From positions 11,140,274-11,204,273 of the forward strand of contig CM040444.1 of assembly GCA_022749755.1 (NCBI GenBank): DNA of 64,000 nucleotides, read 5' to 3'. Position numbers and translations under genes: made by a program. Below the pieces are notes generated by a model. It saw only the letters and a program-made list of their open reading frames with translations, was not told the origin of the DNA and made no database searches. Source of the stretch: Azadirachta indica. Its lineage: Eukaryota; Streptophyta; Magnoliopsida; Sapindales; Meliaceae. Positions 35,315 through 58,185 of this stretch are shown piece after piece. Numbering within the stretch: position 1 is the first letter of the stretch; every line of letters begins with the position of its first letter.

Positions 35315-35319
35315 GTATA

Positions 35320-35601
35320 TATTGGAAAGCTAAAGTCAAAACCAACTGTATAACTTGAAAAATTCTCATATTCCATATGTTGTAGAGCTTGGAAGATTTG
35401 TCATCCGTCACCTTTCAATTAGATTGACAATAGGGAAAATTCACTAATGTATGGCTGACCTTACTTGGAAAATTAAAGGGCAGCTATAAATGTAGAAATT
35501 AGGTGTTATTCTTTTAAAGTAACTAACTTGTATAAAAATATCTTCGGTTGTATGAATCAGATGCATGTAATAAAAATATCAAAAACATCATAATCACAAT
35601 G
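35320..35601 (+). repeat. 5' LTR of copia B
   Basis: 282 bp starting TATTGGAAAGC. It is followed at 35602-35614 by TAGTATTAGAGAC, a mutated form of the usual TGGTATCAGAGCC primer-binding site. It matches 50442-50725 along its whole length. Confidence 0.88.
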
Positions 35602-35849
35602 TAGTATTAGAGACAACATTTGTTGTCTTGGCACCTAAATTATTGTTTTCAATTAATCAACCTTTATTGCTGGTGACTCTAAAAGAGTAATGACTGAAAT
35701 TACATCTGAAATGAAAGAAATCTCTTTGGGAAAAACTATTAGTTCCATAGAATGTCTTACCATCCAAATTACAACTCATAAGCCTTAAGGGTGCGCAAAG
35801 GGAAATATAATCCTCGTAGGTAACTTTTTTTCTGCCCTACATATAGAAG

Positions 35850-37542
35850 AACGTACTCCATGGATCATAAATTAAGGAGCCTTAGATCACATGACAAGTT
35901 TGTTAAATCTTTTCTGAACTTATATTCCATGTTCTGATTATCAAAAGGTTAAGATAGCAGATGGATCTCTTTCTTCAGTCGCTGGAAATGGTTTCATTGT
36001 TATTTCCATAGATATCATCCTCAATTTTGTCCTACACGTCTTTAGTCTATCATGTAACTTGATTTCCATTATTAAACTTACTCGTGACCTAAAATATGTT
36101 GCAAAATTCTCTTCTTATTGTTGTGTATTTTAGGAAATATGTACAGAAAAAAGGATTAACAGTGCTGAAGAGATTGATGGCTTGTTTATTTTGGAAAAGG
36201 AGGCAAAAAAGACTTCAAAGATACAACAATGTAAAAGTTATTCTGAATGAAATCATGTTGCGGCATTCTAGACTAGGTCATCCAAATTTTGTATACTTAA
36301 AACACTTGTTTCCTAATTTGTTCAAAAATATAATGACAATGAATTTCAGTGTGAAGTCTGAGAACTATCCAAATGCCATCAAGCTCGTTTCACTACTCAT
36401 ACTTATACTCCGTCTAGTCCTTTTCCTCTTATGCATAGTGATATATTGGGTCGTTCTTATATACCTAGTTTATCAAAGGCTAAATGGTTTAATACATTTA
36501 CAGATGATCATACCCACCTATGTTGGATATATTTTTTAAAGAAAAAATCTGATACAGCCATTATTTTCCAAAATTTCCATAAAATTATTCAAAATTACTT
36601 CCAAACTAAAATAAAAATTTTGAGGACTGATAATGGAAAGGAATATTTTTCAGAACTTTTGGGAAAATATCTTGATGAAAATGGAATTATTCACCAATCA
36701 TCTTGTGTTGAAACACCTCAACAAAATAAGGGAGCTGAAAAAAAGAATAAGCATCTTCTTAAAGTCATTAGAGCTATAACGTTCCAAATGGATGTGACTA
36801 AACAATATTGTGGTGAGGCTATTCTAACAGTATCTTATCTTATTAATAGATTGCCATCTTGTACCCTTACTTATGAAACACCTATAAATGTACTAAAAAA
36901 TCTTTCCTTCTTTTAATCATATGTTTTCATTACTGATAACAAAAGCAAAGTAGATCCCAAAGCCATTAATTGTGTTTTTGTTGGTTATTTACTTCTGCTT
37001 CAGGTCCTGAAAATATTCCAAAATCAACTTCTAAAACCTTAGATAAAGAGGAACAAGTTAAAGGGAAAAATGAGGAAACTAAACTAGAAAAACTAGAGCT
37101 CAAAGTGTATTCTAGAAGGAATAACGAAGCTGAAAATCCTACTGCACAATGCCAATCCTCTGAACTGCACAAAATAACCTTGAAAAACATAAACGAATCA
37201 AGTGAAACCTGAAATTCTAACTTTATTCATAAACTTGTACCTAATTTAGACATTTATATTGCTCATAGAAAAAGGGTCAAGTTTTGTACTCAACATTGTA
37301 TTGCTAAATTTTTCTTCTATTATCGACTTAATCCTAATTTTAAAGTCTTCATAGTCAATCTCTCTAGTGTGAATGTTTCTAATACAATACAGGAAACCTT
37401 GAAAAAAAAAATGGAGAGAAGTTGTTCAAGAAGAAATGATGGCGTTATACAAAAATAAGACATAGGACTTGGTGAATCTTCCCCATGGAAAAAGGGCTAT
37501 TAGGTGTAAATAGGTGTTCATTGTGAAGTTTAAGGCTGATGG
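35850..37542 (+). pseudogene. Copia B protease, integrase, linker and first part of RT
   Basis: Broken 5' portion of pol. Protease remnant at 35850-36000: ALDHMTSLLNLF and KVKIADGSLSS, with the catalytic DSG lost. GAG-pre-integrase at 36246-36320: LRHSRLGHPNFVYLKHLFPN. Integrase core at 36431-36916 is open for 161 codons with FTDDHTHLCWIYFLKK (first Asp), ILRTDNGKEYF (second Asp) and SCVETPQQNKGAEKKNKHL (catalytic Glu region shifted to AEKK). The linker at 36970-37212 lacks the segment that in the related minus-strand copy reads FWECLLVN. The RT start ends at KADG (37530-37542), where the strand polarity of coding sequence flips. Confidence 0.85.
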
Positions 37543-38033
37543 TAATCGATTCCATATGTTTATGTGAATCCTTTTATGACCAGCCTAGCTTTATATTGGT
37601 CAATTGTTCCATCAGCCTTAAACTTTATAATGAACACCCATTTATACCCAATAGCATTTTTCACATGGGAAAGATCCCCGAAGTCCCATGTCTTATTTTT
37701 ATATAATGCCCTCATTTTTTTCTTGAATAGCTTCTCTTCATTTTTGACTTCTCAAAGCTTCATGTCTTGTATTAGGATCATTCACACTAAAGAGATTGGC
37801 TATGAAGGCTTTAAAAACAGCATTAACTTGATTATAAGATACAAATTTAGCAATAAGATGCTATGTATAAGACTTAACCTTTTTCTGTGAGCAATAGGAA
37901 TATCTAAATCAAATAAAGGTTTATGAATAAGTTTATAATTTCGAAATTCACCTGATTCACTTATGTTTTCTAAGGTTATTTCATATGGTTCAAAGGATTG
38001 ACATTATATAATAGGATTTTCAGCTTGTTTATT
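37543..38033 (-). pseudogene. Inverted copia fragment X, RT-proximal part
   Basis: Reading on -, this encodes the copia linker and the start of reverse transcriptase (KADGTIDQYKARLV, ending at YGID). It is a diverged inverted copy (roughly 20 percent different by eye) of 37140-37542, which lies immediately to its left. It breaks off at 38033, where the inverted-arm element begins, and resumes at 48865 in register (target TTATT/ATATT). Confidence 0.82.
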
Positions 38034-40122
38034 TGTAACATCTTGCATCCGACATACGCTAAAGTAATGCCGAACAAGGATGTTAGGAAAAATTCTGGAA
38101 AAGAATCTGAATTCAAAACCTTACGTCAAGGAACATAATACTCTGATACTAAAATTTTACCAAATACTCCAATTGAAATACAATATCAATCAACTATTTC
38201 CTTACATATCTCAATAATAACAACCAATACCAAGATTTCTATTACTCCAATACTATTTATGCAATTAATACTAAAACTATACAATACAAATACAATTACA
38301 CATGCATAATCACACTATGTGTAATCTCACAAATTTCAAAAGATAACAAAAGCCTCTTCTTGGAGCATACTGAGTCCCTTATTTACCCCAACTCCATCAA
38401 TATTGAAGACCTGAGAAGTAGGAGTTAGTTAATGCCTAATAAATATTTATATATAAAGACAGTTTCTAAAAATATAAACAAATATTCACATAATTTCCTT
38501 TTCACTCTAAACGATAAAATATTCTTAAGATATTCTAAAACAATGTTCATAAAATAATCAGAACACTTTTATCCATTGATCATCAATAAAAGTACTTTTT
38601 GATTCTCGACCATTAATTTAATAAAATAACAAACTAAATATCAAAAATCAACTTCTACAAAAATGACATACACACATATATTCCATTATTGAAAAATTTT
38701 CTATAAGTTCATTTTTTGCGTATTTCTGGAGTATTATTCTCAAGGATTGCAGCCTTAAATACTGCCCAACATACCTTATAAGCATTATTTCAAGGAATCA
38801 TTACCCCAAACACTAGTGCCAACAACAACAACCATGGCTATCTCTTTTTCACTTTTAGTTATTTCAAATCTATTTTTATATTCACAATAACTTTTACAAA
38901 TTTTTGGAGACATAATATTTTCCATTAAATCATCCATTTACATAAATACAACACGTATTTCACACTTTTCTCATTAAAATAATATTTATTAAAAATATTA
39001 TTATTTAATTTGATTTGAAAAATTGTTAATTTATTCATCAAGGAATAATCCACCAATTTTTATAAATATTCAGTTAACCCTTAGATCAAACAAAATTCTA
39101 AATTTCATAAATATTCATTTAACCACTAAAATAAAATATAATATCAATTTTCGTAAAAATTCATTTAATTTTTAAATTAACAAAACACCAAATTTTATAT
39201 ATATCCATTTAATCAATAAATCAAATAAATACCAAATTTAATAACAATCCATTTAATCCTTAAATTAAATAAAATACCAATTTCATAAATATTTATTTAA
39301 TCCGGGAATCAAATAAGTACCAAATTTGATAAAAATTCACCAAAAACTTTAATTACAACAAAAAACCCCACTTTTCAATTTTAAAATCAAAATCAACTAA
39401 ATACACAAAAACACCTACTTGAATATCATATAATAAATTCTACTCATCTATAGACATTTTCCTTGTCTCCAAAACGTTACTAATATCAATGTAACAATAA
39501 TAATAATAATCAAAATTTAATCATATGATGGAACATACTATTCACATAAATAAATATTCTAATCAAATGAAATTTTAAAACTAAATTATACAATATAATT
39601 CCTAAAACTAAAATTTAAATATCAAAGAATCTAACTATTAATGAAAACAATCTCCCTATTTTCTTTATTCTCCTCCTTCTCCTCCTTTCTTTCCTTCTCT
39701 CCAATTTCTCATCCTCCTGCTTCTCTTTTCTTATCTCTTTCCTTTCTTCTCTTCATTTTCTTTTCTTTTTTTTTTCCTTCTTTTCTTCTGCTTTCTCTTC
39801 CTGTCCTTTCCTCCATATTTGCTTCCTTTTTGTCCCCCTCCTTTTTCCTTTCTTTTACTTTTGTCTCCTTTCTTTCCTTCACACGTAAGAAGCAAAAATC
39901 AATATGCTATCAATTAAACCTTTTAACTATTTTTCTTTTTACTTTTCAATTACAATAACAGTCATATTTTTAAATAATTCTATTATTTTGAAAACATAAC
40001 ATATTGATCCTAATCAAATAATTTCCCCAAAATTATATATATATATTCATTTTGTAAATTCTCAAATTTTATATTTTCACATACTACACATTCTCATTAA
40101 TACTAAAATCTAGCATATTACA
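38034..40122 (-). repeat. Left arm of inverted-arm element (LTR-like, - orientation)
   Basis: About 2.1 kb with ends TGTAACATC (outer, 38034) and TATTACA (inner, 40122); read on - it starts TGTAATATGC and ends TGTTACA. It is collinear and inverted relative to 41650-43637 plus 48685-48864. Shared landmarks include TACGCTAAAGTAATGCCGAA near the outer end, a TCC/TTC-rich tract at 39650-39870 and an ATA microsatellite near 39499. A degraded tRNA-Met primer-site motif (AGTATCAGAG on -) lies at 38141-38150, about 110 bp inside the outer end. Confidence 0.8.
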
Positions 40123-40125
40123 ATC

Positions 40126-40549
40126 TAGAGGTGGCAAATGGGCCATGCTAAAACATAGGTCTATGCAGGCTTTTGAGTTTAGGCTGGCACAGCACGTATA
40201 GTAAAATAAATAAGCCTAACTCAATCCATGATATGGTTATTGTGCACGTCATGCCGGCCTCGCCTATTAGAAAGCAGCTGAAGCACAGCCCATAAGCATT
40301 ATAGGCTGAACAATACCTGTAAATAATACTCCTAAATAGTGAATAGTTATACTGTACATAGTGATTAACAAATGATTTTCATTGTTTATAGGCTGAACAG
40401 TAGCCCGTGGGCTTTTTTTAGTACGGCATGACAACTATTCACGACACAACATAGCCCATGGGCATTTTTCTCGACCCAACTTGTGAATAGTATCGTGTCA
40501 TGTTAAACCATGCCGTGCTCAGGTTGACTCATCTATTTTGCCACCTCTA
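40126..40549. mobile_element. hAT-type MITE
   Basis: A 424-bp element with terminal inverted repeats TAGAGGTGGCAAA at both ends. It is flanked by 8-bp target duplications TTACAATC (40118-40125) and TTGCAATC (40550-40557) that differ at one base. It carries no coding sequence and is rich in subterminal GGCTGAACA/GCCCATGGGC-type motifs, consistent with mobilisation by a hAT transposase encoded elsewhere. It landed 4 bp from the inner end of the left arm. Confidence 0.88.
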
Positions 40550-40641
40550 TTGCAATCTCCCCACCTATAAAAAATTTAGCCCTCAAAATTTAATCTATCT
40601 TATTAATCAAAAAAGATAAATTATTATACCTTGCATTTCTC

Positions 40642-41341
40642 TATAGGATTAGGATTCAGTCCTAATCTCCTCCCTCCTTAACTTTTAAGGAGATGTTGAC
40701 ACCTGTTAATATTTAAAATAAAGGTCTTAGATTAAATTTTAATAAAATCTACTTATTTACTATTTTAATCTACTAAAGTTAAAAGTAAATATTATTTTTT
40801 TTATCTCACTACCAAAAGGTATAGTTGACTACCATCATGGACCGCCATTGGCCACTACTAAATGACATTCGATTGAGAAACCGTAAATACTATTGAAATC
40901 CTTGTTGAGTACTCTATGTAATAGCATTATCATTATTTTTATTTGAGCAACCGTTTGTTGTAGAACTGAAGTTAAATATTTAGAACTAAAAAATTTAATT
41001 TCATATTTATGTCAAACCATTGATTAAATGAAAATAATAATAGTACCATTACGTAAGGTACTCAATAAGGATTTTATTACTATTTACAATTTTTCAAATG
41101 GATGTCGTTCACCAACAGTTAATGGTGGCTACTAGTGACCGAGATGACAATCAATGGTAGCTTTTGGTGATTAGATAAAAAATAATAATTTTTACTTTTA
41201 ACTTTAATAAATTATAATAGTAAATGGATAAAATTTATAAAAATTAGACTTAATCTTTTACTTAAATATTGACTTATGTCAATATCTCATTGAGAGTCAA
41301 GGAGAGATGAGATCAAGAAACTATCCTAGTCCTCCTCTATA
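40642..41341. repeat. 700-bp fold-back (palindromic) element
   Basis: A near-complete inverted repeat whose arms (about 40642-40980 and 41010-41341) pair along their length. Left ATATTATTTTTTTTATCTCA pairs with right TTAGATAAAAAATAATAAT, left CACTACTAAATGACATTCGA with right GGATGTCGTTCACCA, and the tips TATAGGATTAGGAT/CCTAGTCCTCCTCTATA match. The loop is near 40990. It has no coding capacity. The target-site duplication is unclear (possibly TA), so the superfamily is not assigned. Confidence 0.75.
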
Positions 41342-41649
41342 ACTCCTTCAAAAATATTTTTAGTATTAACTATCGTACCTTAGATCTCAATGGTTTGAAG
41401 TATTGCTTAACTTACTAATCTCAAAAAGCACTAAGGCATTAATTCTTAACCAATCATCCTTTACAAAAATTTGTAATTATAAAACCATCAAAGATATTGC
41501 TTAGATACTAAAAATTTTGGTAATATCAAAATCATATATATATATTAGTCGATGTTTAGATTCGAATAATAACAAAAGTCTCAGATAATGAATACATGAC
41601 AATCCTTGAATCGAATCCTTAAATATTATGAAATACTTAGCTGGGAGAT
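41342..41649. other. Centre of the inverted-arm element
   Basis: AT-rich sequence without a recognisable gene, between the fold-back repeat and the right arm. It ends in GCTGGGAGAT, a purine-rich tract directly before the arm; the left arm is bordered by the matching GGTGGGGAGAT on -. Both resemble polypurine tracts before a 3' LTR. Confidence 0.5.
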
Positions 41650-43632
41650 TATAATACACCCGCTTCTCGTATTAATTGCAATGCGTATATATGGACACAT
41701 CTTTAATATACTATGTGAAGACATAAAATTTGGGAATTTATAAAATGAATATATATAATTTTAGAGAAATTATTTGATTAGGATGAATAAGTCATGTTTT
41801 CAAAAGAATAGAATTATTCAAAAATATGAAAGTTACTGTGGGAGAAAAGTAAAAGAAAAATAGTTGAAAGGTTTAATTGATATTGGCAAAGTAAATTGAT
41901 TTTTGCTTCTTACGTGTTAAGGAAAGAAAGGAGACACAAATAAAATAACGAAAAAAAAAAAAGGAGCAGGACAAGAAGGAAATACGGAGGAAAGGAAAGG
42001 AAAAAAAAAATGAGAAGGAAAGAAAGAAAAAAAATAAAAAGAAAAAACGAAAGAGATAAGAAGAGAGGAGAAGGATAAGGAATCGGAGAGGAGGAAAAAA
42101 AGAAGGACGAGGAGAATAAGGAAAATAGGGAGATTGTTTTCATTAACGGTTAGATTTTTTTGATATTTAAATTTTATGTTTTAGAAATTATATCTTATAA
42201 TTTAATTTTAAAATTTTTATTTGGTTAGAATATTTATTTGCGTGAATAGTATATTTTATTAGATGATTAATGTATTATTATTATTATTATTATTATTATT
42301 AAATTGATATTAAGAAGTGATTTAGAGAGACGAAAAATCTCTACATAGGAGCAAAATTTATATGCATTTGGCTGATTTTTATTTTAAAATTGAAAAGTGA
42401 GATTTTTGTTACAGTCAAAGTTTTTGGTGAATTTTTATGAAATTCAGTATTTATTTGATTTGAATTAAATAAAAATTTATAAAATTTGGTATTTATTTAA
42501 TTTATGGATTAAATGGATATATATATATTATTAGGAGTGTTGTAAATTTAAAGATTAAATGAATTTTTATAAAAATTGATATTCTATTTGATTTTAGTGG
42601 TTAAATGAATATTTATGAAATTTGAAATTTTGTTTGATTTAAGGGTTAATTGATTTTTATGAAAATTAGTGGATTATTACTTGATGAATAAATTAATAAT
42701 TTTTCAAATCAAATTAAATAATCATATTTTTAAGAAATATTATTTTAATGAGAAAAGTATGAGATACGTGTTATATTTATGTAAATGGATGATTTGATGA
42801 AAAATGTTATGTTTCCGAAAATTTGTAAAAGTTATTTTGAACATAAACATGAATTTAAAATAATTGAAAAATGAAAAAGAGATGGTTATGGTTATTGTTG
42901 TTGACATTGGTGTTTGACGCAATGGTACCTTAAATAATACCCATAAAATATGTTGGTGTGACAACCCTTAAGAATAATGCTTTTAAAGTCCGTTTTGTAA
43001 GAGCGACGATCCTTGAAAATAATACCCTTAAAGTAGTTGGCCAACTTTTGGGACTAAAATTCTTGAAAATAATGCTTCATAAATACGTAAGAAATGAATT
43101 AATGAAAATTATTTTTGATGATGGAATAAATGTGTTTATGTTATTTTTGTGAAAGTTGATTTTTGAGATGTAGTTTGATATTTTATCAAAATTTATGATT
43201 GAGAATCAACAAGCATTTTTGTTGATGATAAATGAATAAAACTGTTTGGATTATTTTATAAACATTGTTTTGCAATATCTTCAGAATATTTTGTCGTCGA
43301 AAATAATAAGAAATTTTACGTGAATATTTGTTCATATTCCTAGAAGCTACCTTTATATGTACATATCTACTAAACATTAGTTTACCCCTACTTTTCATAT
43401 CCTTGGTATTGATAGAGTTGAGATAAATAAGGAACCAATTGTGCTCCAAGAAAAGGCTTTTGCTATTTTTTGAAATTTATGAGATTACACATGCACATAT
43501 AGTTGTATGATTATGTATGTGTAATTATACTTGTACTGTATAATTTTAATATGATTGCATAAATAGTATTGGAGTAATAGAAATATTGGTATTAGTTGTA
43601 TTTATTGAGATATGTAAAGAAACAGTTGATTG
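41650..43632 (+). repeat. Right arm of inverted-arm element, part 1
   Basis: Starts TATAATACACCC and is the inverted counterpart of the left arm, with a purine-rich tract at 41900-42135 opposite the pyrimidine tract of the left arm and an ATT microsatellite near 42275-42300. The arm is interrupted after 43637 by a full-length copia element and continues at 48685. Confidence 0.8.
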
Positions 43633-43637
43633 ATATT

Positions 43638-43891
43638 TAATGAAACTATGATAATTTTCTGTTATATTATTGATTCATACAACCAAAGATATAGATACAA
43701 GTAAGCTGCTCTAAAAAGATAACACTTACTTTCTACCTTACAACTGTCTATTAAGTAAGTCAATCATAAAATAGTAAAATTTTCCCTAATTTTAGCCTAA
43801 TTGAGGGTGGTGCATGATAAATTTTTTCTAGCTATACAAAATGTGAAATATGGCAGAATTTTCCAATTTGTATAGATGGTTTTGACCAATA
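43638..43891 (-). repeat. 3' LTR of copia R1
   Basis: 254 bp; on - it starts TATTGGTCAAAACC and ends TTTCATTA. It is preceded on - by the polypurine tract at 43892-43904 and followed by the ATATT duplication. Confidence 0.9.
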
Positions 43892-43894
43892 CTC

Positions 43895-45480
43895 CTCCTT
43901 AAGCTAGTTCGTAAATATCTACCATTCCCAACTTACTAAGTATTTCCTGAAAATGAAGTCTAGATAATCCTTTGATTGAAATATCAGCTAACTGGTTTTT
44001 TGTAGACACAAATGATGTGCACATCAGTCCAATTTCTATCTTTTCTTTGATGAAATGTTGGTCAACTTTAACATGCTTTGTCCTATCATGCTGGACCAAA
44101 TTATGAACTATACTTATAGCAGCTTTATTGTCACAATATAGTTTCATAGGATTATCATTCTCCATTTTTAGCTCTTTTAAGAATAATTTTAACCATAATA
44201 GCTCACAAATTCCTAAGGCGATGGATCTGAATTCAGCTTCAATATTAGATCTTGCAACTATTGGTTACTTTTACTTCTCCACGTTACTAGATTACCTCCA
44301 ATAAATATACAATAACTCGAAGTCGACCTCTTATCAATGATTAAACTTGCCCCCAATTAGCATCTGTATAAAGCTTTTACTTCTATGTTGCTACTTCTTG
44401 AAAATAACAATCCTTTTGCAAGTGTTCTTTTGAGATGCCTTAGAATTTTAGTCATTACATTCATATGTTCTTTACTTAGGGCGTGCATAAATTGGCTAAC
44501 AACCCTTATAGCAAAGCAATATCTGATCTTGTATGAGATAAGTATATTAACTTATCCACTAATCTATGATATCTCTATTTGTTTACCGATGTACTTGTTG
44601 TCAAGGCTCCAATCTTGTGATTAACTTCAATTGGAGTATTTGTTGGTTTGCATCTAAGCACTCATGTTTCTTTAAGCAAATCCAAAGTATACTTCCTTTG
44701 AGACAAAAAAATCCCTCCTTTTAATCTGGCTACCTCAGCACCTAGAAAATATTTTAGATTCTCTATATATTTAATGTCAAATTCTTTAATAAAGCAATAC
44801 TTCAAGTTTTGTATTTCAATCAAATCATTCTCGATCACAATCATATCATCAACATACACAATTAGTACAGTGATTTTACCTCCCTTTGTATGTTCGTATA
44901 GCAAAGTGTGATTAACTTGACTTTGTAAGTATCTTTTGCTATAAAATAACTTGGTAAACTTTTCAAACCAAGCTCATAGTGATTGTTTTAACTCGTAGAG
45001 TGACTTTCTTAACTTGTAAACCTTTTTATTCTCAAAACTTTCTTTGAAATCTAGTGGCAATTCCACTTACACCTCTTCCTCTAGATCTCTATAAAGGAAA
45101 GCATTCTTGACATCCAATTGATATAGTGGCCAGTCTTAGTTGGTAGCAAGTAGGAACAAAACTCGAACTGTATTCATTTTTGCAACTGGTGCAAAGGTTT
45201 CTTGGTAATCGATTCCATACATTTGCGTGAATCTTTTTACGACCAGCCTAGCTTTGTGTTAGTTGATTGTTCCATCAGCCTTGAACTTCACAGTAAACAC
45301 CCATTTACACCCTACAACCTTTTCTCTATGGGAAAAATATACCAAGTCCAATGTCTTGTTTTTGTATAACGCCCTCATTTCTTCTTGGACATGTTCTCTC
45401 CATTTTTTACTTCTCAAGGCTTCTTATATTGTATTAGGAACATTCACACTAGAGAGATTAGCTATGAAGACTTTAAAATT
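43895..45480 (-). pseudogene. Copia R1 reverse transcriptase and RNase H (broken)
   Basis: Reverse transcriptase on -: KADGT and YKARLVVK-like blocks at 45190-45300, then VEVELPLDFKE-type sequence near 45050, and the catalytic YVDD box inside ITVLIVYVDDMIVIENDL (about 44820-44880). KYFLGAEVARLKGGIFLSQR follows. RNase H (43899-44165) keeps MKLYCDNKAAISI and KHVKVDQHFIKEKI, with the DNK and HVxVDxHFI signatures. It ends LSKLGMVDIYELA just before the polypurine tract. Stops and frameshifts separate the blocks. The enzyme would convert the element RNA to DNA in the virus-like particle. Confidence 0.9.
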
Positions 45481-47330
45481 AGGATTAAGTCGATAATAGG
45501 AGACAAATTTAGCAGTATGATGTTGAATACAAGACCTGACATTTTTTCTATGAGCAATAGGAATATCTAAATTAGATAAAAATTCATGAATAAGGTTAGA
45601 ATTTCGGGATGCATTTGATTCAGTTATGTTTTTCAAGGTTACCTTGTGCGGTTCAAAGGATTGGCATTGTACAATAGGATTTTCACCTTCTTTATTTCTT
45701 TCTAAAATTCACTTTGAGCTATAGTTTTTTTGGTTTAGTTTCCTTATCTTTCCTTTTTACTTGTACCTCTTCATTTAAGTTTTTAAAAACTGATTTAGGA
45801 TTATCTTCAGCACCTGAGGCAAAAGTATTTGCTACTAGAATAGTAGGATTATAATCAACTGAAATATTAGGTAAAAAACTGGTGGAATTCTCAGAAACAT
45901 TGACTAGTAGGCATTCCCAAAACCAATCTTCCTTCTTATCACTCTTCCTCCGAAGAGAAGGTTTGTGAAAAAAAAGATTTATTTTCAAAAAATGTGACAT
46001 TCAAAGTTACAAAATATTTTCGAGATTCGGGATGAAAACACTTGTAACCTTTTTGAGTTAATGAATAACCAACAAAAACACAATTAATAGCTTTGGGATC
46101 TAGTTTGCTTTGATATGACTATGATCATAGACAAAAGCAATGCAATCAAAAACTTAAGTGTGAGTAATGAAAACATATAACTAAAAGAAGGAAAGATTTT
46201 TTTGAGTACATTTATGGGTGTTTCATAAGCAAGGGAACGGGATGGCATTCTATTAATGAGATAAAATGCTGCTAGAATAGCCTTAACCCAATACTGTTTA
46301 AGTACCTCCATTTGAAGCATTATAGCTCTAGTGACTTCAAAAAGATGTCTATTCTTTCTTATAGCTACCTCATTTTGTTGGGGTGTTTCAACACAAGATG
46401 ATTGGTGAATAATTCCATTTTCATCAATGTATTTTCCCAAAAGTTCTAAAAAATATTTCTTTTCATTATCAGTCCTCAAAATTTTTATTTTATTTTTGAA
46501 GTGATTTTGGATAGTTTTGTGGAAATTTTGAAAAATAGTGGCTGCTTCAAAATTTTTCTTTAAAAAATATGTCTAACATGGATGGTTATGATCATCTGTA
46601 AGTGTAATAAACCACTTAACTCCTGATAAACTAGTTATATGAGAAGGACCCAACACATCACTATGCATAAGAGAGAAAGGATTAGATGTAGTATAGGTAC
46701 GACTAGGAAAATGAGATTGATGGTGTTTGGATAGTTCATACACTTCATATTGAAATTCATTGACATTTTTATTTTGAATAAATTAGGAAACAAGTGTTTT
46801 AAGTATGCAAAATTTGGATGACCTAATTTAGAATGCCACAATATGATTTCATTCCTTTGGAAAGTATAACTTTTACATTGTAATGCCTTTGAAGTCTTTT
46901 CTGCCTCTTCTTCTAAAATAAATAAGTCATCCATCTCTGTAACACTGTCAATCCTCTTTCCCGTACATATTTCCTAAAATACACAGCGATTTAGAGAGAA
47001 TTTACCAACACAATTTAGGTTATGAGTAAGTTTACTGAAAGAGATTAAGTTACAAGATATATTAGGAAGATGTAGGAGAAAAATTTAGGGTGATATCTTT
47101 GGAAATAACAATGGAAACCTTTTCAGCAACTAAAGAAAGAGATTTATCTGATATCTTGACCTTTTGATGGCCAGAACATGGAACATAAGTGGAAAAAAAA
47201 TTTGACAAATATGTCATGTAATCGGAGGCTCCTGAATCCATGATCCATAGAGTAATTTTTTTTGTGTGTAGGGTAGAAAGAAAGTTACCTACTTGGGCTA
47301 CATTTCCAATAAATGTAGAAGCTTAAAAAT
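45480..47330 (-). pseudogene. Copia R1 protease, integrase and linker (broken)
   Basis: On -, the protease region near 47240 keeps the active site WIMDSGASDYMT and KVKISDKSLSL. GAG-pre-integrase at 46790-46870 reads ILWHSKLGHPNFAYLKHLFP. The integrase core holds LTDDHNHPC (first Asp, about 46590), ILRTDNEKKYFLELLGKYID (second Asp) and SCVETPQQNEVAIRKNRHL, where the usual GVAERKN has become EVAIRKN. The tail reads YWVKAILAAFYLINRMPSR. The linker at 45720-46000 contains WECLLVNVSENSTSFLPNIS. The longest uninterrupted piece is 131 codons (46084-46479). Confidence 0.9.
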
Positions 47331-47399
47331 GTTGGTTCATGAAATTTTAAAGAGATACTCTAGTTGTTCCTTGTTGAAAATTAAAGACTCAGAAGTTTT

Positions 47400-48335
47400 T
47401 GCCTGTTCAATACTTTAAGACTTATGTTGTTCAACAGGTTGAAATCCTTTGCTAGTATTATTGGTTGGCCTATTTTCTTTTCCAAACCCTTGAGACTTCC
47501 TATAGAGCTTCCGACATGTGTTCCTTATGTTACGTGATCTATTACAATAATCACACCATAATTTATCCTTGTCATCATTCTTCTTTACAGAATTTCATTG
47601 ACTAGTGATAATTTCTAATCTTATTTCTGATCCTTCTTTTCCTATTTTTTCTTTGGTCATTATAACCATCAACTTGCTTTCTTCCCTTCTTATTGTAACA
47701 TAAGTCTCCCTCATGGTTAGAAGAAGATTTGTCTCCAAAAGTCTCCTCCTAACTTGATCCAATTCTGCATTTAAACTAGATAGGAATTTAAATACTCTTT
47801 CCTTTTCAAGAATCATCTTATACAATATATTATTTTCAACACAATTCCATTAAAATCTTGGTAGAGATCCATTTCTTGCCAAAGTCAATTTACAGCGTTA
47901 AAGTATACTGTCACTATCTAGTTTCCTTACTTGATATCTTGACCCTTGTGTTTCAAATCATATAACATATAAACAGTGTTCAAATCTGAAAATGCAACAT
48001 TAGCTGCATCCTATATTTCCTTCGCAGTAAGAAAAAAAAATGTATTCTTAGCTAATGTCATGTTCCATGTAATTAACTAACTATGATATCACCATTGAAT
48101 TTCCAACATCTTAGACAGTATATCCAAAATTAACAAGGTTTGGTGCCATCTTCGAGCCATCCAAATAGGCGATCTTTCCTCAACCTTTAATAAAGAAGAA
48201 CTTCACAAATTATGCTCAATGTAAGAAATTTTTCCCATTGAACTTGTCAATTGTAATCTCGATAGTTGAACTTTTCATGGAACTAGTATTTTGTCCCAAA
48301 AAGATTTTCTTCTTCTCAAATGTAACTTTAGCCAT
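47400..48335 (-). pseudogene. Copia R1 gag (broken)
   Basis: Gag begins at the ATG whose first base is 48335 on - (MAKVTFEKKKIFLGQNTSS), 76 bp after the primer site. The middle is cut by stops. An intact piece of 76 codons at 47595-47825 reads KERVFKFLSSLNAELDQVRR and LLETNLLLTMRETYVTIRRE, the usual end of the copia gag capsid domain. A zinc knuckle is recognisable near 47530 as WCDYCNRSRNIRNTC, with the expected His missing. Confidence 0.85.
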
Positions 48336-48424
48336 TTTTCTTCTTGATTTACCAACAATGAAGGCTAATTAATTGAGAAAAAATAACCTAGATGCTTGAA
48401 CACTAAAGGTTGGCTCTGATACCA

Positions 48425-48679
48425 TAATGAAACTATGATAATTTTATGTTATATTATTAATTCATATAACCAAAGTTATATATACAAGTAAGTTATTCTA
48501 TAACGACAACACCTACTTTCTACCTTACAACTGCCTATTAAGTAAGTCAATCATAAAACAATAAATTTTTTCTTAATTTTAGCCTAATTAAGAGGTAATG
48601 CATGACAAATTTTTTCTAGCTAAACAAAATGTGAAGTATAGCAAAATTTTCTAATTTGTACAGCTGGTTTTGACCAATA
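48425..48679 (-). repeat. 5' LTR of copia R1
   Basis: 255 bp; on - it starts TATTGGTCAAAACC and ends TTTCATTA, and is immediately followed by the primer-binding site at 48412-48424. The left flank on + after 48679 is the ATATT duplication. Confidence 0.9.
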
Positions 48680-48684
48680 ATATT

Positions 48685-48864
48685 AAATTTCAATTGAAAG
48701 TATTTAGTAAGTTTAGGATTTAAAGGTTTTAAAAGATATGATAGATGGTATCAGAGCATTACATTTTTTGAGGTAAGGTTTTGAATTTAATTACTTTTGA
48801 AGAATTTTTCCTAACATCTAGTTCGGCATTACTTTAGCGTATGCCAGACTAGAAGAATGTTACA
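48685..48864 (+). repeat. Right arm of inverted-arm element, part 2
   Basis: The outer 180 bp of the right arm, continuing from 43637 after the copia R1 insertion. It contains a perfect primer-site motif TGGTATCAGAGC at 48746-48757 and ends AATGTTACA at 48864. ATATT (48865-48869) is the partner of TTATT (38029-38033), with one mismatch. Confidence 0.8.
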
Positions 48865-49170
48865 ATATTCCTTCTAAAATACACTTTGAGCTCCGATTTT
48901 TCGTTCAATTTCCTTATCTTTCCCTTGTTCCTTCTTATCTAAGTTTTTAGAGGTTGATTTTGGAATACTTTTAAAGCTTGAAGCAAAAAATATCTTCTAC
49001 TGCAATAAGGGATTATAATCACATGAAACAAGTGAAGGAATAGTGCAATTTTCTTGACTTAAAGTAGGTTTATAATCTTTTGAAATATTAGATAAAAAAC
49101 TGATGAAATTTTTAGGAACATTGACCAGTAGGCATTCCCAAAACTTTCTTTGAGAACTTTGCTTCGATTG
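48865..49170 (-). pseudogene. Inverted copia fragment X, integrase-linker part
   Basis: On -, it encodes QSSQRKFWECLLVNVPKNFI and FLSNISKDYKPTLSQENC, the copia linker after integrase. It joins in register with the fragment at 37543-38033 once the inverted-arm element is removed. Near 49170 the coding strand flips back to + and reverse transcriptase of element B resumes at KMNTIQVLLS. Confidence 0.8.
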
Positions 49171-50430
49171 TAAAAATGAATACAATTCAAGTTTTACTTT
49201 CACTTACTGTAAACCAAGACTGGCCACTATATCAATTAGATGTCAAGAATGCTTTCCTTCATAAAGATGTAGAGGAAAAGGTGTACATGGAATTGTCACC
49301 AGTTGAAAAAAGTTTTGGAAATAAAAAGGTCTACAAGTTAAGAAAGTCACTCTATAAGTTAAAACAATCACTACGAGCTTAGTTTGAAACACTCACCAAG
49401 TTAATTCGTAGCAAAGGATAGTTGTAAAGCTAAGTTGATCACATTTTGTTGTACAAATATACAAAGAGAGGTAAAACACTATGCTAATTATGTATGTTGA
49501 TGATATAATTATGACTAGGAATGACTTGATTGAAATACAAAACCTCAAACACTTTCTTGCTAAAGAATTTGACATTAAAAATCTAGAAAATTAAAAAATA
49601 TTTTTTAGGTATTGAGGTGGCCAGATTAAAAGGAATAATTTTTTTTGTCTCAAAGGGAATACAATTTGGATTTGCTGGAAGAATCAGGAATACTTAGGTG
49701 TAAACTACCAGATACTCCAATTAATGTTAATCACAAAATTGGAGTCTTGACAAAGAGTACACCAATGAACAAGGAGAGATATCAGAGATTAATGTGTAAG
49801 TTAATATACTTATCTCATACAAGGCTAAATATTGTCTTTGCTATAGGGATTGTTAGCCAATTTATGTATGCCCAAAGTGAAGAACATATGAATATAGTTA
49901 TTAGAATTTTAAGGTATCTTAAATGAGCACTTGGAAGAGGATTGTTATTTTCAAGAAATAACAAGAAGGAAGTAGAAGTTTATACAAATGCTGACTGAGC
50001 AGGTTCAATCATTGATAGGAGATCAACTTCGGGGTACTATACATTTATTGCAGGTAATCTATTGCAAGATCTAGCACTAAAGCTGAATTCATATCCATCG
50101 CCTTAGGAATTTGTGAGCTATTATGGTTAAAATTACTCTTAAAGAAGCTGGAAATAGAGAATGACAGTCCTATAAAACTATATTGTGACAATAAAGTTGC
50201 CATAAGTATAGCTCATAACCCAATTAATCTAGTTGAACATAATAGAATAAAGCATGTTAAAATTGATCGACATTTCATCAAAGAAAAGATAGAAAGTGTA
50301 CTGATCTGCACATTATTTGTGTCTATAAAAAAAAACTACTAGCTGATGTTCTGACTGACAAAGGATTAGCTAGACACAACTTTTAAGAAATTCTTAACAA
50401 GCTGGAAATGATAGATATCTATCAACCAAC
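49171..50430 (+). pseudogene. Copia B reverse transcriptase and RNase H (broken)
   Basis: Second part of element B pol. The RT palm region opens at KMNTIQVLLSLTVNQDWPLY and continues QLDVKNAFLHKDVEEKVYME (49176-49382), with the first catalytic Asp of LDVKNAFL. The catalytic box is MYVDDIIM (about 49490-49515). A second open piece (49645-49926) reads KERYQRLMCKLIYLSHTRLN. RNase H follows with IKLYCDNKVAISIAHNP (50170-50220) and KHVKIDRHFIKEKIE. It ends EMIDIYQPT before the polypurine tract TTGAGGGGGAG. Single-base frameshifts break the frame at several places. Confidence 0.88.
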
Positions 50431-50441
50431 TTGAGGGGGAG

Positions 50442-50725
50442 TATTGGAAAGCTAAAGTCAAAACCAACTGTACAACTTGGAAAATTCTATCATATTCCAC
50501 ATGTTATACAATTTGGAAGATTTACCATCATTTATCTTTCAATTAGGCTGAAATTAGAGAAAATTCACTATTTTATGGCTATCCTTACTTGGAAAATTAA
50601 GGGACAACTATAAATGTAGAAATTAGTTGTTACTCTTCTAAAGTAAATAATTTGTATAAATATATCTTTGGTTGTATGAATCAGATGCATGTAACAAAAA
50701 TATCAAAAATATCATAATTACAATA
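50442..50725 (+). repeat. 3' LTR of copia B
   Basis: 284 bp starting TATTGGAAAGC directly after the polypurine tract and ending TTACAATA. It is followed by the target duplication GTATA (50726-50730). Confidence 0.88.
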
Positions 50726-50730
50726 GTATA

Positions 50731-51162
50731 TTTTTTCAAAGATTGCAAGTACACTCCACATTCCAAACTTTCAAGTGCAGCAATAGAATCATTTTTTAAG
50801 ATAATTTTTATCCTTTGCTAATCTAACCAAAACACAATACCAGTAATTAGGTCATTTTTAGTCAAAACAGATCCTAGCAGCAGCAATATATTCATCTCTT
50901 CAAATAATTCATATAAAAGAATCTTCTTTTGATTACAAGTGGGTGGGATCCATTCTTGCACAAGTAATTCTTTTGATTGCACCGAGAGCTTTCTTATTTT
51001 GTTTTCCTCTCTATAATTCTGTGCTATTAACATGATACCATCTGTTAACTATGTTTAGGCAGTTTAAGAATGTAAAAGATAGATAAACATACTATTATAA
51101 CAAATTTATCAATGTATAAAATATTTACTAGACTACAATCATAGCTCTAAAACCCTGAAGAG

Positions 51163-51199
<37 letters not shown>

Positions 51200-51385
51200 C
51201 CTTACTTGAGCAACAAATTTCAGTGTCCTTCATGTCAAGTGACTTGCTATCTATGAATCAAGCAAACATACTTTTTAGTCTATCGACAAACCATACAACT
51301 TAAATTATTGAATCAAGCACTATCATAAGTAATCTGCAATGATAAGAACAATAAAAATGAATCATTATTTGAATTAACAAACAAA
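50731..51385. other. Intergenic DNA with long poly(A)
   Basis: No recognisable gene. A minus-strand frame at 50818-51033 (71 codons) has no known domain. A 32-bp A tract lies at 51167-51198; it could be a poly(A) tail of a retroposed sequence on +, but no parent sequence is recognisable to its left. Confidence 0.5.
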
Positions 51386-51567
51386 CCGTGTTCTATCCCA
51401 ATGGTGCCTTGAGCACAAGCTGCTCGAAACTCAAGCACTCTCCACCTACCTTCTCAATCCTAACTCTAGCAGTCTCACTAAACCTTGGGGTGTAACCTTC
51501 AATACTGGCACTTCATAAATCCAGCTATTCAATCAGAATCACAATGAAAAAAATAAGACCTAAAATG

Positions 51568-51615
<48 letters not shown>

Positions 51616-51772
51616 CGAGAGAGAGAGAGAGAGAGATAAATAATAACCTTTCCCTTCATTAAGTTGATGGTCCCGGAATGATAATGCGGGCCTCGTTCAC
51701 CTGGCTCGTGAAGAGCCTCTTCAATATTACTTTGTTGAAGTTGCTGTTTGTTTTCTCCCAAATGAATGAGAA
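51386..51772 (-). pseudogene. Ribosomal protein L18 (eL18) gene relic
   Basis: Two exon-like pieces of cytosolic 60S ribosomal protein L18. On -, piece 1 (51772-51652) reads TNSNFNKVILKRLFTSQVN then, after a frame change, PHYHSGTINLMKGK (family form PLSLSRLINFMKGK). Piece 2 (51522-51386) reads [12 protein letters not shown], then [20 protein letters not shown] after frame changes, then LG-NTV with a stop in the conserved LGQNTV. Between them is an intron-like gap with GT after MKGK and AG before WIYEVP. It contains a (TA)n tract (51569-51614) and a (GA)n tract (51616-51635). The block between KGK and the DD-IYEVP region, and both protein ends, are missing. The retained intron suggests a genomic fragment, not a processed copy. 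Confidence 0.72.
51569..51635. repeat. Compound (TA)n(GA)n microsatellite
   Basis: About 46 bp of TA repeats (51569-51614) followed by about 20 bp of GA repeats. It lies in the intron-like gap of the L18 relic. Confidence 0.95.
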
Positions 51773-52252
51773 ATCTACTTCTAACAATTTAGACATATAT
51801 TTTTATAATTAATTTAATTTCTTTAATCTATAGTTAAGTAGTGCTTTTTCATATTGATATGAATTGTCATTCTTCTCCAAGATAATATTTGATTAATATT
51901 GTGTTTTATGTTAATATTTTAAGAATTATTATATTTACAAAATTGGAAGTATCAAGTATAAAAGAATCAACATTTGCAGATGGTCACCAAGACAGAAAAA
52001 TTATGGAGTTACAAGGAATATGGATGATAACTTGATTAAATCATTGACTTACATTTAAAAAAAAAAAAAAATTGATCATCTTCTGTATCTGGATACAACC
52101 GCAAACTACACAAAGAAAAATATTCATGACTAAACTCAACTCAAAAACAAACATGATGAGATTTAATAAGGAAAACAGAGCAAAGACAAAAGAAATAATT
52201 TAAGTTTCTTCTTCAGTCACAAGGATGGTACTGCAGCCACACTCGCACATCC

Positions 52253-55200
52253 TCAATCTAGACGCTCCATCTGCATTAAAGATCAATGTATAAATCCTCA
52301 AATATCGAACATATTATTTTTTAAAAGAAGCAAGTACGCCTATATGACTTAAGCAGAGCAGAAAATATATGTTAAATTTGCCAATAGGATCACTACCGTA
52401 TAAATATATGACAGTTTTAACTCAAGCACACCACATAGTAGTAAACGAAACAAATGCAAAACATAATTAAGCACAAAACAGATACAGAAACATAAGCAGC
52501 TATTTACCTTCCAAAGGCCATCATTGAGATAATGCATGTTGTCCACCCCAATCCCCTTGTTAATTGTCTTTCTGTAAACCAATGAGAAGAAAGGGAAAAT
52601 GAACAGGCTTAAAAGAAACAAAAAATTTCCATCAATTTTGAGACACCAGTCATCTGTTTCTAATTCATTTCTTATGTTCTAATTATGGTGCCACTTTCAA
52701 GTTAACACTTAAATTTGGCATTTGAGGCAGAGCTGTTGGCGATGCAGCTGGAATGCACGAAAAGTTTTTGTTTTTTGCCAAAAACGATTCTTTTGGTAGG
52801 ATTATAAGAATTGAAGTAATGTACGACAGTTTGTAAGTGATGAAATTGTCTGACAATGAGATTTAGAAAGCATATTGGTTGAGGCTTGTACTCCATAGTT
52901 GAGCCAAGATCCCATTACATTACTCAGAAAATGGTTTGCTACTTTTGACGCCTAGCTAGAAAAACTACTGGGTATAAAAGTTAGACAATAACTTACATAT
53001 CTTTAGCTGACATTTTTGTAAACCCAATAGCTAGAGCATGTTGCTTTCCTTCTGCCATTATCGCCTGAGAATGCCCATTTTGTATGTCAGAAAGATGTAA
53101 GAAAATGTAAGCATCCTCATATTACATCCGTCAAAATTAAAAAGGCAGAAGAATGGCATTACACTTAAGCAGCATACCAAAACAGAAAAGAAAGCAAAGT
53201 AATTTAACATCAGCAGTAACACTTATGGACAAGCATATACAGCATATACACATGCACGGATAGGGAGAGAGAAGGACAATTTATACCACAGGAGTTTCTG
53301 CTTCCACTTCATCATCCAAAACACCACCTGGTGATGTAAGACCAGGACACATTATGTTTGCACCAAAGCACAAATTTGATTGCACCCCGATCTACTTGCA
53401 ACTTTTTCATTATATTAGGATCTGTGGTACCAAGAATATAGAGAATGAATATTCTACATTTTGAATTTTTAGAAGAGTGAGATCCACTCACAAGACAAAA
53501 CAATGGTGTACTAAAGAGCTAATAACATTTAATATCAATGTGACAAGTTTACGAACTGAAAAAAGGTAATGGTTTCCCCTCTATACTTTTCTTCACCCAT
53601 TTCCTTCTCTCCTATTTCTATCTGGATAGATTAAGCATACACATAATAGCCATACATAATAGCCATACAAACTAGAAATGGTCAAAAAGGCTTATAGAAC
53701 ACTTCAAATGGAGGCAAATAGGGGAATGATGAAGCTCAGGACCAATTCTCATATGATTCCACTATCTTGTTCATCATGCTCTTCAAACAATTCTAAAACT
53801 ATCTAACAGACTAAGTAAAATGTACACGAACATACTTATCCAAGAACCATAAACCAGATTTTTCAAAGAGTTTCTTTCTTTCCCCAGTTCCCACCTTAAC
53901 TCAATTTTCAGAAATCATAAGCTGTTGTGTACACAAAGAGAGAACAGTAAGCACAGTATACAAAAGGTTCCTCATAATTCACTGAAGATTTCTACAAAAC
54001 ATATCAGATACCACGGTAAAACACAACAATCAGTTATAGAGTAATTAATCTTGACAAAGAAACATTTACATTGATGAAGGAGCCGAAGGGTAGGCATGTA
54101 AGGCCCATCACGGATATTGAAAAATAACGGAACATTATTCACCAAAACGAGGTTCAGATGATTTTGACTGCAAGCAATGGGAAAGGGAGGTCAATGTCAG
54201 AAACATGTTTGTATATTCTAAAAATGAACATAAAGAAACAAACAGCTTAATCAATAATTAATAACAGAAGCAGGAGCATGTACAAGAAAATTACAAACCA
54301 TTTAGCAACAATCAATGGTGCCTTCTTGGGAAGCAAATCATCCAACACTGGCTCAAGTCCTGGGTACTGCATTAGAAGTGAAGCTTTTGTTAATACAAAA
54401 GATAATGTTAAATTTCAAATTCAACCACAAACTATTAGAAGCAGAAATATAAAAGGTGCAAAAATAGCAACAATGTAACCTCATCAGCAATGCTTTGCCG
54501 AATTTTACGTTGGACGGATGCTTTCACTTGGTTTTGTGCAGACACATCTTCCGATGAAAACCTACAAGATAATAGAACATAACATACATGATATACAGCA
54601 GGGTATTATTCTTACCAACAGAAGGAATAATAGCTATTAAAGATAAATACATGGTGCACTTATCAACACAAGAAAGGAAAACTAGTCTAGATTAGAGACT
54701 ATATGGTGGTAAATTCAGCAAAATCTCAGAATAGCCAACTTCAAATTTAAAAAATAAAATAATAACATTACACGGTGGACTATACTTTCATCAGGGATCA
54801 GCATAGATAGACTTCATAGCCTATATTCTCTTTACATATGGTCACACCATAAATCATCACCATAAACTTTCAGGCCTTCTCACTCATTGTCATACTCATA
54901 TACAATACACATCATATAAACTTTGGGTGCACATGGACAACCTTCACATATATCAGATGTAAGAGTTTTCTATCCATAATCAGTAATCTCTAGCTAGAAT
55001 AGTCACAGAAACTCAAATAAGATGAAACAAATCCCTCCTCACGTATATGTAATCTTTCCAATTCCAAAATCCACTAGCTAAATGAAACCCAATTAGCAGA
55101 AAATTAGTCTGTAGTACAAATAAACTTCAAAGATTAAAGTAACAAAACATAATAAACATGCAACTACCTTAATGTCAACTCGTAATACAGAATTATCAGT

Positions 55201-55570
55201 CATGTTTTCAAATTTCACAAAGCATCCCATGTAGAAACTAAATTACCCACATAAATTCACAAGATTAAACAAGCCATAACCATTGTTTTGCAAGAAAATT
55301 AGAAGCTGACAATAAAAAATAAAATAAAAACCTTTTTATTTGATTCCTCGACACAATCATGCACCAAAATACACATCCCATGTATTCATCAAAACACACT
55401 AAAATAACAGAAAGAGAACAATCTATGAACAGACCAGAAAACCAACTGAAACCGACTCCTGTGAGAGAGAAAGGTGTTACTTTTTGAACATAGACCAATC
55501 TATGAACAGACCAGAAAACAAACTGAAACCAACTCCTATGAGAGAGAGACAGGTGTTACTTTTTGAACAT
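52253..55570 (-). CDS. MCTS1/MCT-1-like PUA-domain protein, frameshifted in exon 5
   Basis: Plant homolog of MCTS1 (Tma20), which with DENR acts on 40S subunits in translation re-initiation and recycling. Exons on -: 55570-55560, 54561-54480, 54366-54299, 54167-54070, 53421-53287, 53064-52997, 52571-52508, 52270-52253. All splice sites are GT-AG and phases match. Residues run MFKKFSSEDVSAQNQVKASV, YPGLEPVLDDLLPKKAPLIV, then NNVPLFFNIRDGPYMPTLRL. The PUA domain follows (QVDRGAIKFVL, MAEGKQHALAIGFTKMSAKD, TINKGIGVDNMHYLNDGLWK, MERLD-stop). In exon 5 the expected FVLSGANIMCPG reads FVLWCKHNVSWS because 2 bp are missing near 53364-53367, giving a stop at GGCFG-like residues before the PUA core ends. 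Without it the protein would have 181 residues. This is either a recent pseudogene or an assembly error. Confidence 0.9.
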
Positions 55571-55572
55571 TG
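55419..55572 (-). repeat. Tandem duplication of MCTS1 exon 1 and its donor
   Basis: Two roughly 77-bp units, 55419-55495 and 55496-55572, share AATCTATGAACAGACCAGAA and ACTTTTTGAACAT with few differences. Each carries ATGTTCAAAAA followed by GTAACACC on -, that is, the start codon, the 11-nt first coding exon and its splice donor. The outer copy (ATG at 55570) is the conventional start; the inner copy (ATG at 55491) lies in intron 1. Confidence 0.9.
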
Positions 55573-55790
55573 CTTGAGTTGCTTCGCCGATTGCAACAGT
55601 TAAAAGAACTGCGGAGCTTGAAGATCCAGTGCTGAAACAAAGAGGTTGCTCGCGTGGCTATAAAGCCAGGTTGTCTTAGTTCGGACCGAGTCGGGTTTTT
55701 TATTGGGCCTCACTGTTGTTTTAGGGAATGGGGCTGAAACAACAAGAGGGCTTCTTCATGTTTTTCCAAATGGGCTTCTAAGATTTCTCA
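55571..55790 (-). promoter_or_regulatory. Promoter and 5' UTR of the MCTS1-like gene
   Basis: GC-richer block upstream of the start codon. Site II-type motifs TGGGCC (55704-55709) and TGGGCT (55771-55776) are present; these are common in plant genes for ribosomal and translation proteins and are bound by TCP factors. TTTATAGCC on - near 55665 is a weak TATA candidate. Confidence 0.55.
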
Positions 55791-55799
55791 CGTTTTCTT

Positions 55800-57950: not shown

Positions 57951-58185
57951 GATTTGCTGGGGCCATAAATGTGCGTGAGCTCAGAAGCCCGGTCTATTCA
58001 GGCTCGACTCGGGTGGAGCGCGGACCGACCAAGAGACCAAGCCCGGTCGGTTACGACCCAACCGCTTTTATTCTTTCTTTTTTTTCGGGGGGAGTTTAGT
58101 GCAGATGGTAATAATTTGTAGCTTTCACATGAAAATTTGATTACAGGGAAGAAAATTACAGAGCCAGAACTGCAGAGGTGGTGGC
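57951..58185 (+). promoter_or_regulatory. CSN8: Promoter and 5' UTR of CSN8
   Basis: A short CpG-rich island (57960-58065, for example GGAGCGCGGACCGACC) in otherwise AT-rich DNA, ending 120 bp before the CSN8 start codon. The 5' UTR likely begins within 58070-58130. No clear TATA box, as in many housekeeping genes. GGGGCCATAAA at 57959 resembles a site II motif. Confidence 0.5.

Follow-up and report, generated by a model that had tools for sequence, protein, structure and literature searches.

The 64,000-nucleotide stretch of Azadirachta indica DNA analysed here (the window; assembly GCA_022749755.1, contig CM040444.1, positions 11,140,274 to 11,204,273 of the forward strand, referred to as C5:11140274-11204273) carries at 38034-48864 a unit with two arms of about 2.1 kb that look like long terminal repeats (LTRs). 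In an ordinary LTR retrotransposon these repeats are direct, whereas those of the window unit are inverted, which raises the question of what kind of element this is and how it came to be inserted. The answer that we favour, with a probability of roughly 0.68, is one aberrant insertion: a malformed complementary DNA (cDNA) of an apparently non-autonomous LTR retrotransposon, ending in the 5'-unique (U5) end of an LTR on both sides, would have been integrated once. The locus appears to reflect a rare error in the copying of a retrotransposon, not a new type of element.

Self-comparison of 36500-50500 revealed a ladder of inverted matches that pairs 38034-40122 with 41650-43637 plus 48685-48864. 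With this result and the alignments, the arms are collinear inverted copies with the limits given by the original prediction, which was made from the letters of the window. Their identity is 82.4% over 1841 aligned sites with MAFFT and 84.9% over 1838 sites in a pairwise alignment, a likeness far beyond chance. Reading of the termini also agrees with the earlier observation that both outer ends, read inward, are TGTAACA. The arms comprise the following features:

38034..40122, minus strand: left arm, a complete LTR with its U5 end outward (both termini as in family copies)
41650..43637, plus strand: right arm, inner part of a complete LTR (inverted matches to the left arm and family matches)
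48685..48864, plus strand: right arm, outer part, U5 end outward (sequence read and family matches)
39640..39880, minus strand: purine-rich tract, in the sense direction, inside the left LTR (94% purine over the best 150 bp)

The nature of the arms follows from their relatives. The genome (281 Mb, 21 contigs) was searched with the first 601 bases of the left arm and with the inner 773 bases of the arm, giving at least 44 matches (40 of 86 candidates scored) and at least 61 matches (40 of 255 scored), respectively. Nineteen stretches, two of them overlapping each other, were retrieved and compared locally, counting matches of at least 50 bp. Homology among these copies begins with TGTAACA and finishes with TATTACA or close variants, and their flanks are unrelated, except in locus pairs with common flanks. 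The copies are either solo LTRs of about 2.1 kb or elements bearing a primer-binding site (PBS) and a polypurine tract (PPT). Six independent solo-LTR loci had both ends readable: a 5-bp target-site duplication (TSD) is perfect in four of them (ATTTT in L011; ACATG in L018 and its flank-sharing copy L022; ACCAG in L019, whose flank-sharing copy L020 keeps 3/5 only; CATCC in L025/L027), reaches 4/5 in one (L010) and is absent from one (L017). L015, with its near-identical copy L016, retains remnants of a 5' LTR, the PBS TGGCATCAAAGCATAGGTTATG, about 0.9 kb of internal DNA, the PPT GATGGGAAGAT and a 3' LTR. L014, L015 and the relatives L028-L031 each have a PBS just past the LTR end, and a PPT is present in L015 and beside both window arms. 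Each arm is a complete LTR of about 2.1 kb of a dispersed LTR retrotransposon family; the TG...CA-type ends foreseen from the window are indeed common to independent copies with unrelated flanks. LTRs of only about 116 bp were ruled out, since the family copies show the unit of about 2.1 kb. L015 fixes the sense direction, in which the U5 ends of both window arms face outward. The family is apparently non-autonomous, L015 holding just the 0.9 kb between PBS and PPT. We take it to resemble the LARD-like (large retrotransposon derivative) non-autonomous LTR retrotransposons, since its long LTRs (2.1 kb) likewise enclose little internal DNA (about 0.9 kb in L015); it is smaller than classical LARDs.

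The purine-rich tract had been taken to lie on the inner side of each arm and to act as the polypurine signal of a 3' LTR. A tract of about 200 bp does exist, but it sits inside the LTR, about 300 bp from the 3'-unique (U3) end, and the PPTs proper are TAGGTGGGGAGAT on the left and AGCTGGGAGAT on the right. In the right LTR the tract, again purine-rich in the sense direction, lies at about 41910-42125. The purine content of its best 150 bp is 93-98% in both window arms, L015, L025 and L027, and 61-81% in the remaining 9 of 14 copies, L023 among these being truncated.

Fold-back transposons are recurrent inverted pairs that move together, and DIRS-type integration leaves no TSD. A family of either sort, moving as inverted pairs, would account for the inverted arms and the bounded unit, but we hold it to be extremely improbable here. 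The genome was searched with the arm, a check proposed with the original prediction; the copies retrieved were solo LTRs, mostly with TSDs, or PBS/PPT elements, and inspection of the 44 + 61 matches listed, by eye, found no opposite-strand pair within 20 kb other than that of the window. Furthermore, the inner junction occurs only in the window and in a 99.6% copy described below. A palindromic retro-derived element or a fold-back transposon that mimics LTRs had been suggested; the retro origin stands, while the palindromic or fold-back kind is not supported, the arms being true LTRs with no second inverted pair among the matches listed. The unit is like retrotransposons of the DIRS-1 type in its inverted LTRs; these, as far as the consulted part of PMC5633606 describes them, have a tyrosine recombinase and an internal complementary region, whereas the family of the arms has PBS, PPT, TG..CA-type ends and 5-bp TSDs.

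How many insertions were involved can be read from the outer boundaries. The unit lies in an inverted copia piece (the linker) within a host copia element, and a second, inner copia interrupts its right arm:

35320..50725, plus strand: host copia element (LTR-to-LTR match, edges read)
37540..38033, minus strand: linker, left part, an inverted copia piece within the host copia (collinear with inner copia 45203-45696 and running against the remaining host sequence)
38029..38033, no strand: left TSD, TTATT (alignment of flanks)
43638..48679, minus strand: later copia insertion in the right arm, 5.04 kb (edges read, self-comparison)
48865..48869, no strand: right TSD, ATATT, 4/5 identical to the left one (alignment of flanks)
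48865..49144, minus strand: linker, right part, resuming in register (matches inner copia 45696-45864 and 45842-45923)

The linker segments 37540-38033 and 48868-49144 match inner copia 45203-45696 and 45696-45923 in one direction, while the remaining host runs opposite. Against the inner copia and the host counterpart, the linker halts at TTATT and restarts at ATATT, in register and with a 5-bp overlap; the host's uninterrupted counterpart reads CGTTATTCC, with a single TTATT. When the flanks were joined in silico, one inner-copia match spanned the junction. Two uninterrupted copia relatives thus bear out the earlier description of a unit bounded by TTATT/ATATT with the copia linker resuming in register.

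The centre of the unit, 40123-41649, is accounted for by two miniature inverted-repeat transposable elements (MITEs), which make up most of it, together with internal DNA of the element and PPT:

40126..40549, no strand: MITE 1, with an imperfect 8-bp TSD TTACAATC/TTGCAATC (edges read), presumably hAT-like
40555..40567, minus strand: PPT TAGGTGGGGAGAT of the left half (sequence; compare the L015 PPT, GATGGGAAGAT)
40555..40638, minus strand: 3' internal region of the left half, part 1, PPT included (matches the L015 internal region)
40646..41334, no strand: MITE 2, a high-copy imperfect palindrome with CTCTATA on both sides (many genome copies on both strands; edges read)
41342..41638, minus strand: 3' internal region of the left half, part 2, up to the inner junction (77% to L015 3537-3216)
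41639..41649, plus strand: PPT AGCTGGGAGAT, 11 bp, abutting the right LTR (sequence)

The assignment of 40555-40638 comes from a BLAST match to L015, the global alignment having left this stretch to the left of MITE 2 unplaced. The left half therefore combines an LTR with about 0.39 kb of 3' internal DNA; PPT and LTR are all that the right half contains. A query of 41540-41700 matches four places, namely the window, the 99.6% copy on C5, L015 and L016, and the matches to L015/L016 stop at 41638. Measured against L015, the unit is without the 5' LTR, the PBS and about 0.5 kb of 5' internal DNA. Two simple explanations of the inversion were discarded: a 5' LTR inverted in place, as the DNA inside the right LTR is PPT and not PBS, and MITE 2 as the fold-back point, as the internal region is collinear with L015 across it.

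Comparisons of the centre with copia and with the family copies found no recognisable host or linker DNA between the arms. This bears directly on the possibility that two elements were inserted separately in opposite orientations and the DNA between them was then deleted, the outcome that would have reduced the unit to a chance head-to-head pair. Both arms are complete LTRs, and solo LTRs are common among the retrieved copies, so such a history is conceivable in principle; yet the same 5 bp of linker abut both outer ends, no linker DNA lies between the arms and neither arm has a TSD of its own (left TTATT/ATCTA; right AATAT/ATCTC), which makes it distinctly unlikely. The register of the flanks and the lack of host DNA between the arms favour one event, in agreement with the claim that the unit was inserted as a whole.

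A further question is whether the assembly can be trusted at this place. At C5:2842500-2862400 (L009/L042) lies a copy of window 41036-60434 that is 99.6% identical, with 22 mismatches and 31 gap openings; it confirms the right half and its outer junction and stops in MITE 2 before the left half. This copy could represent an allelic contig or have arisen by recent duplication. An artefact at the palindromic MITE 2 could be suspected because the copy, identical at 99.6% over 19.4 kb, breaks off at 41036 inside this MITE at a gap of 100 N. We nevertheless give an artefact very little credence: the repeats on either side of MITE 2 match, the collinearity with L015 extends across it, the TSDs of the composite and of the host agree, and the window is without N runs. 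Indeed, the host copia is flanked on both sides by GTATA (35315-35319 and 50726-50730), which speaks against a chimeric assembly. L015/L016 and L023/L024 are likewise near-identical pairs on the same contig, as are L009/L042 and the window, hinting at misplaced allelic contigs.

Collectively, the tips of the same type, the one 5-bp duplication and the lack of host DNA between the arms fit a single integration of a malformed cDNA, and the arms end where independent family copies end, which supports a single insertion. Both tips of this cDNA would have been the U5 end of the LTR, ...TGTTACA. Its left half would derive from a 3' LTR and about 0.39 kb of adjoining internal DNA, and its right half from a 3' LTR and PPT alone, which is the extent of PPT-primed plus-strand strong-stop DNA, part of the established reverse-transcription scheme. 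The halves would be joined tail to tail at 41638/41639, and the joined molecule could have formed in two ways: the growing minus strand may have switched onto a minus-strand template at the PPT during reverse transcription, or two half-cDNAs may have been end-joined before or at integration. Integrase would then have paired the two U5 ends, and a single integrase-type integration into the inverted copia piece would have produced the 5-bp duplication. Two MITEs in the centre and the copia element in the right arm were inserted afterwards; the latter has a perfect TSD, ATATT, at 43633-43637 and 48680-48684, and LTRs that are 88.6% identical over 254 sites.

Several points weigh against this scenario. 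The strong-stop origin of the right half is suggested by a single junction. The outer duplication is 4/5 rather than 5/5, and no second double-U5 insertion was found in the genome among the matches listed. Furthermore, a switch within one molecule predicts arms that were identical at birth; their divergence K is 0.171 (pairwise) or 0.205 (MAFFT), compared with 0.136 +- 0.024 for the host copia LTRs (87.8% identity over 286 sites), an excess of about 1.3 or 2.6 standard errors when the pairwise standard error is used for both. Taken at face value, the somewhat higher figure means either that the arms differed at birth or that the insertion predates the host copia, having been carried in as part of a moved block.

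In a tree of the LTRs, the two window arms group together with a split support of 100, apart from 13 other rows, the sixteenth row being L009, the copy of the right arm. The tree leaves out L012, L014 and L026 (partial) as well as L016 and L024 (near-duplicates of L015 and L023), and retains the flank-sharing pairs L018/L022, L019/L020 and L025/L027; most rows start 100 bp inside the chosen start point, and the outer 180 bp of the right arm are outside it. Such clustering, which favours a single insertion, would also be expected if an ordinary element with a TTATT duplication had later lost its 5' LTR, PBS and 5' internal DNA, and repair had copied the left LTR backwards, using the TGTAA common to the LTR ends, until the inverted LTR reached the old right boundary. 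Later repair accounts for the TSD and the absent 5' half, and TGTAA/TTACA is common to both LTR ends; it requires, however, a switch within 5-6 bp of the extreme end of the element and a stop just beyond the PPT, and we regard it as rather unlikely.

The single aberrant insertion has a counterpart in the complex insertions attributed to template switching by Sabot and Schulman 2007 (PMC1950507), which have a direct orientation and whose flanking TSDs are the mark of a single integration. The window unit is alike in that a malformed cDNA from reverse transcription is proposed to have been integrated once, and a duplication in register (TTATT/ATATT, 4/5) surrounds the whole complex with 5-bp TSDs. 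The published complexes differ in having three LTRs that all point the same way, with two internal regions, while the window unit has two inverted LTRs, U5 at both tips and most internal DNA missing. Autointegration products, which together with DIRS-1 are the nearest inverted forms met in the literature, are, according to the portion of PMC2644782 consulted, similarly rearranged with inverted parts and made by integrase; they are non-productive deletion or inversion circles, whereas the window unit is chromosomal and has a TSD. The consulted section of PMC6911290, which mentions that plant LTR elements favour palindromic target sites only weakly, was not used further. Among the titles and abstract openings surveyed, none described two LTRs paired in a chromosome with both U5 ends facing outward, which is weak evidence of absence as most subscription papers lay beyond the search.

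The original prediction had also pointed to a primer-site motif inside each outer end that no simple LTR model explains. The motif is indeed there, at 118 and 119 bp:

38140..38151, minus strand: PBS-like motif embedded in the left arm, 2 mismatches to TGGTATCAGAGC, 118 bp from the U5 end (motif scan)
48746..48757, plus strand: PBS-like motif embedded in the right arm, exactly TGGTATCAGAGC, 119 bp from the U5 end (motif scan)

When 90-140 bp from the U5 end were scanned, 13 of 17 LTR ends proved to carry a 12-mer that differs from TGGTATCAGAGC at no more than 3 positions. The count contains several near-duplicate rows; it omits L009 and L016, which duplicate the right arm and L015, respectively, as well as L013, L021 and L026, for which the outer end gave no match. 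All 13 lie at 115-119 bp, against a chance of about 0.0004 per position at equal base frequencies; L011, L012, L015 and L027 each show 4-5 mismatches. The true PBS is located after the LTR end, not at the embedded motif. A search with the 5' internal part of L015 gave at least 47 matches, of which four places were retrieved, and a PBS-plus-leader pattern with up to 3 mismatches gave 10 places. In the short-form relatives L032/L035 (L030 and L032 are one place) the LTR terminates in ...TTTTTTATAGAATTTGAGATGTTACA, with the PBS 4 bases later. L031 has the same sequence, ...TTTTTTATAGAATTAGCGATATTACA, after which come a PBS-like motif, roughly 105 bp of further DNA, a new LTR end and, at a distance of 118 bp, a second PBS; in L028/L040, which are one place, the spacing is 117 bp. 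Since the short-form LTR ends where the embedded motif begins, the motif looks like a former PBS.

At the level of the family, the embedded motif is thus probably explained, with exceptions, as a fossil PBS. Counter to a general rule, the motif is found upstream (at most 3 mismatches) in 2 of the 10 pattern places, L038 (the same as L014) and L040; L033/L034 lack it despite a similar U5 tail, and the U5 regions of L036, L037, L039 and L041 are different ones. The long forms may have arisen by priming at the second site, or the short forms by loss between the two sites. L028, L031, L033, L034 and L036-L041 belong to related or other LTR families that share much of the same PBS and leader and differ in their U5 tails; several have a hairpin-like stretch before ...GTTACA.

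These results lead us to a tentative proposal, which we consider possible but somewhat less likely than not: that the integrase of plant LTR retrotransposons is able to insert DNA whose two tips are the same U5 end and of which one half is plus-strand strong-stop DNA with its PPT, that double-U5 insertions form a recognisable class of chromosomal fossils, and that in the same lineage a PBS switch lengthened the LTR by about 118 bp, leaving a fossil PBS inside. LTR-element finders generally seek direct LTR pairs, so inverted insertions would escape them or be scored as a pair of solo LTRs. Should the double-U5 interpretation prove true, such loci record reverse-transcription intermediates and the end-pairing of integrase in the genome. 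The embedded PBS, in turn, suggests a simple route for a change of LTR length in one copying cycle, testable in other families.

Some further features of the surroundings deserve mention. The LTRs of the host copia lie at 35320-35601 and about 50442-50725, with the PPT GGGGGAG at 50435-50441. At 37120-38033 the inverted copia piece adjoins the host's own counterpart, forming a local palindrome (78-84%). The piece differs from the host by K 0.239 +- 0.028, above the value between the host LTRs (0.136 +- 0.024), and for this reason it probably originated in another copia copy; among the 16 genome matches listed, no nearer source exceeded 81%, apart from the piece itself. Within the LTR family, L014 (C14:19198000-19207900) has a PBS and an internal region that contains a nested repeat; it also has a second U5 tail, of 115 bp, in the same orientation and without a matched U3 part. 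Finally, a 3.2-kb imperfect palindrome (83%) occupies L023:1293-4525, close to a truncated LTR copy, and the near-identical L024 has the same.

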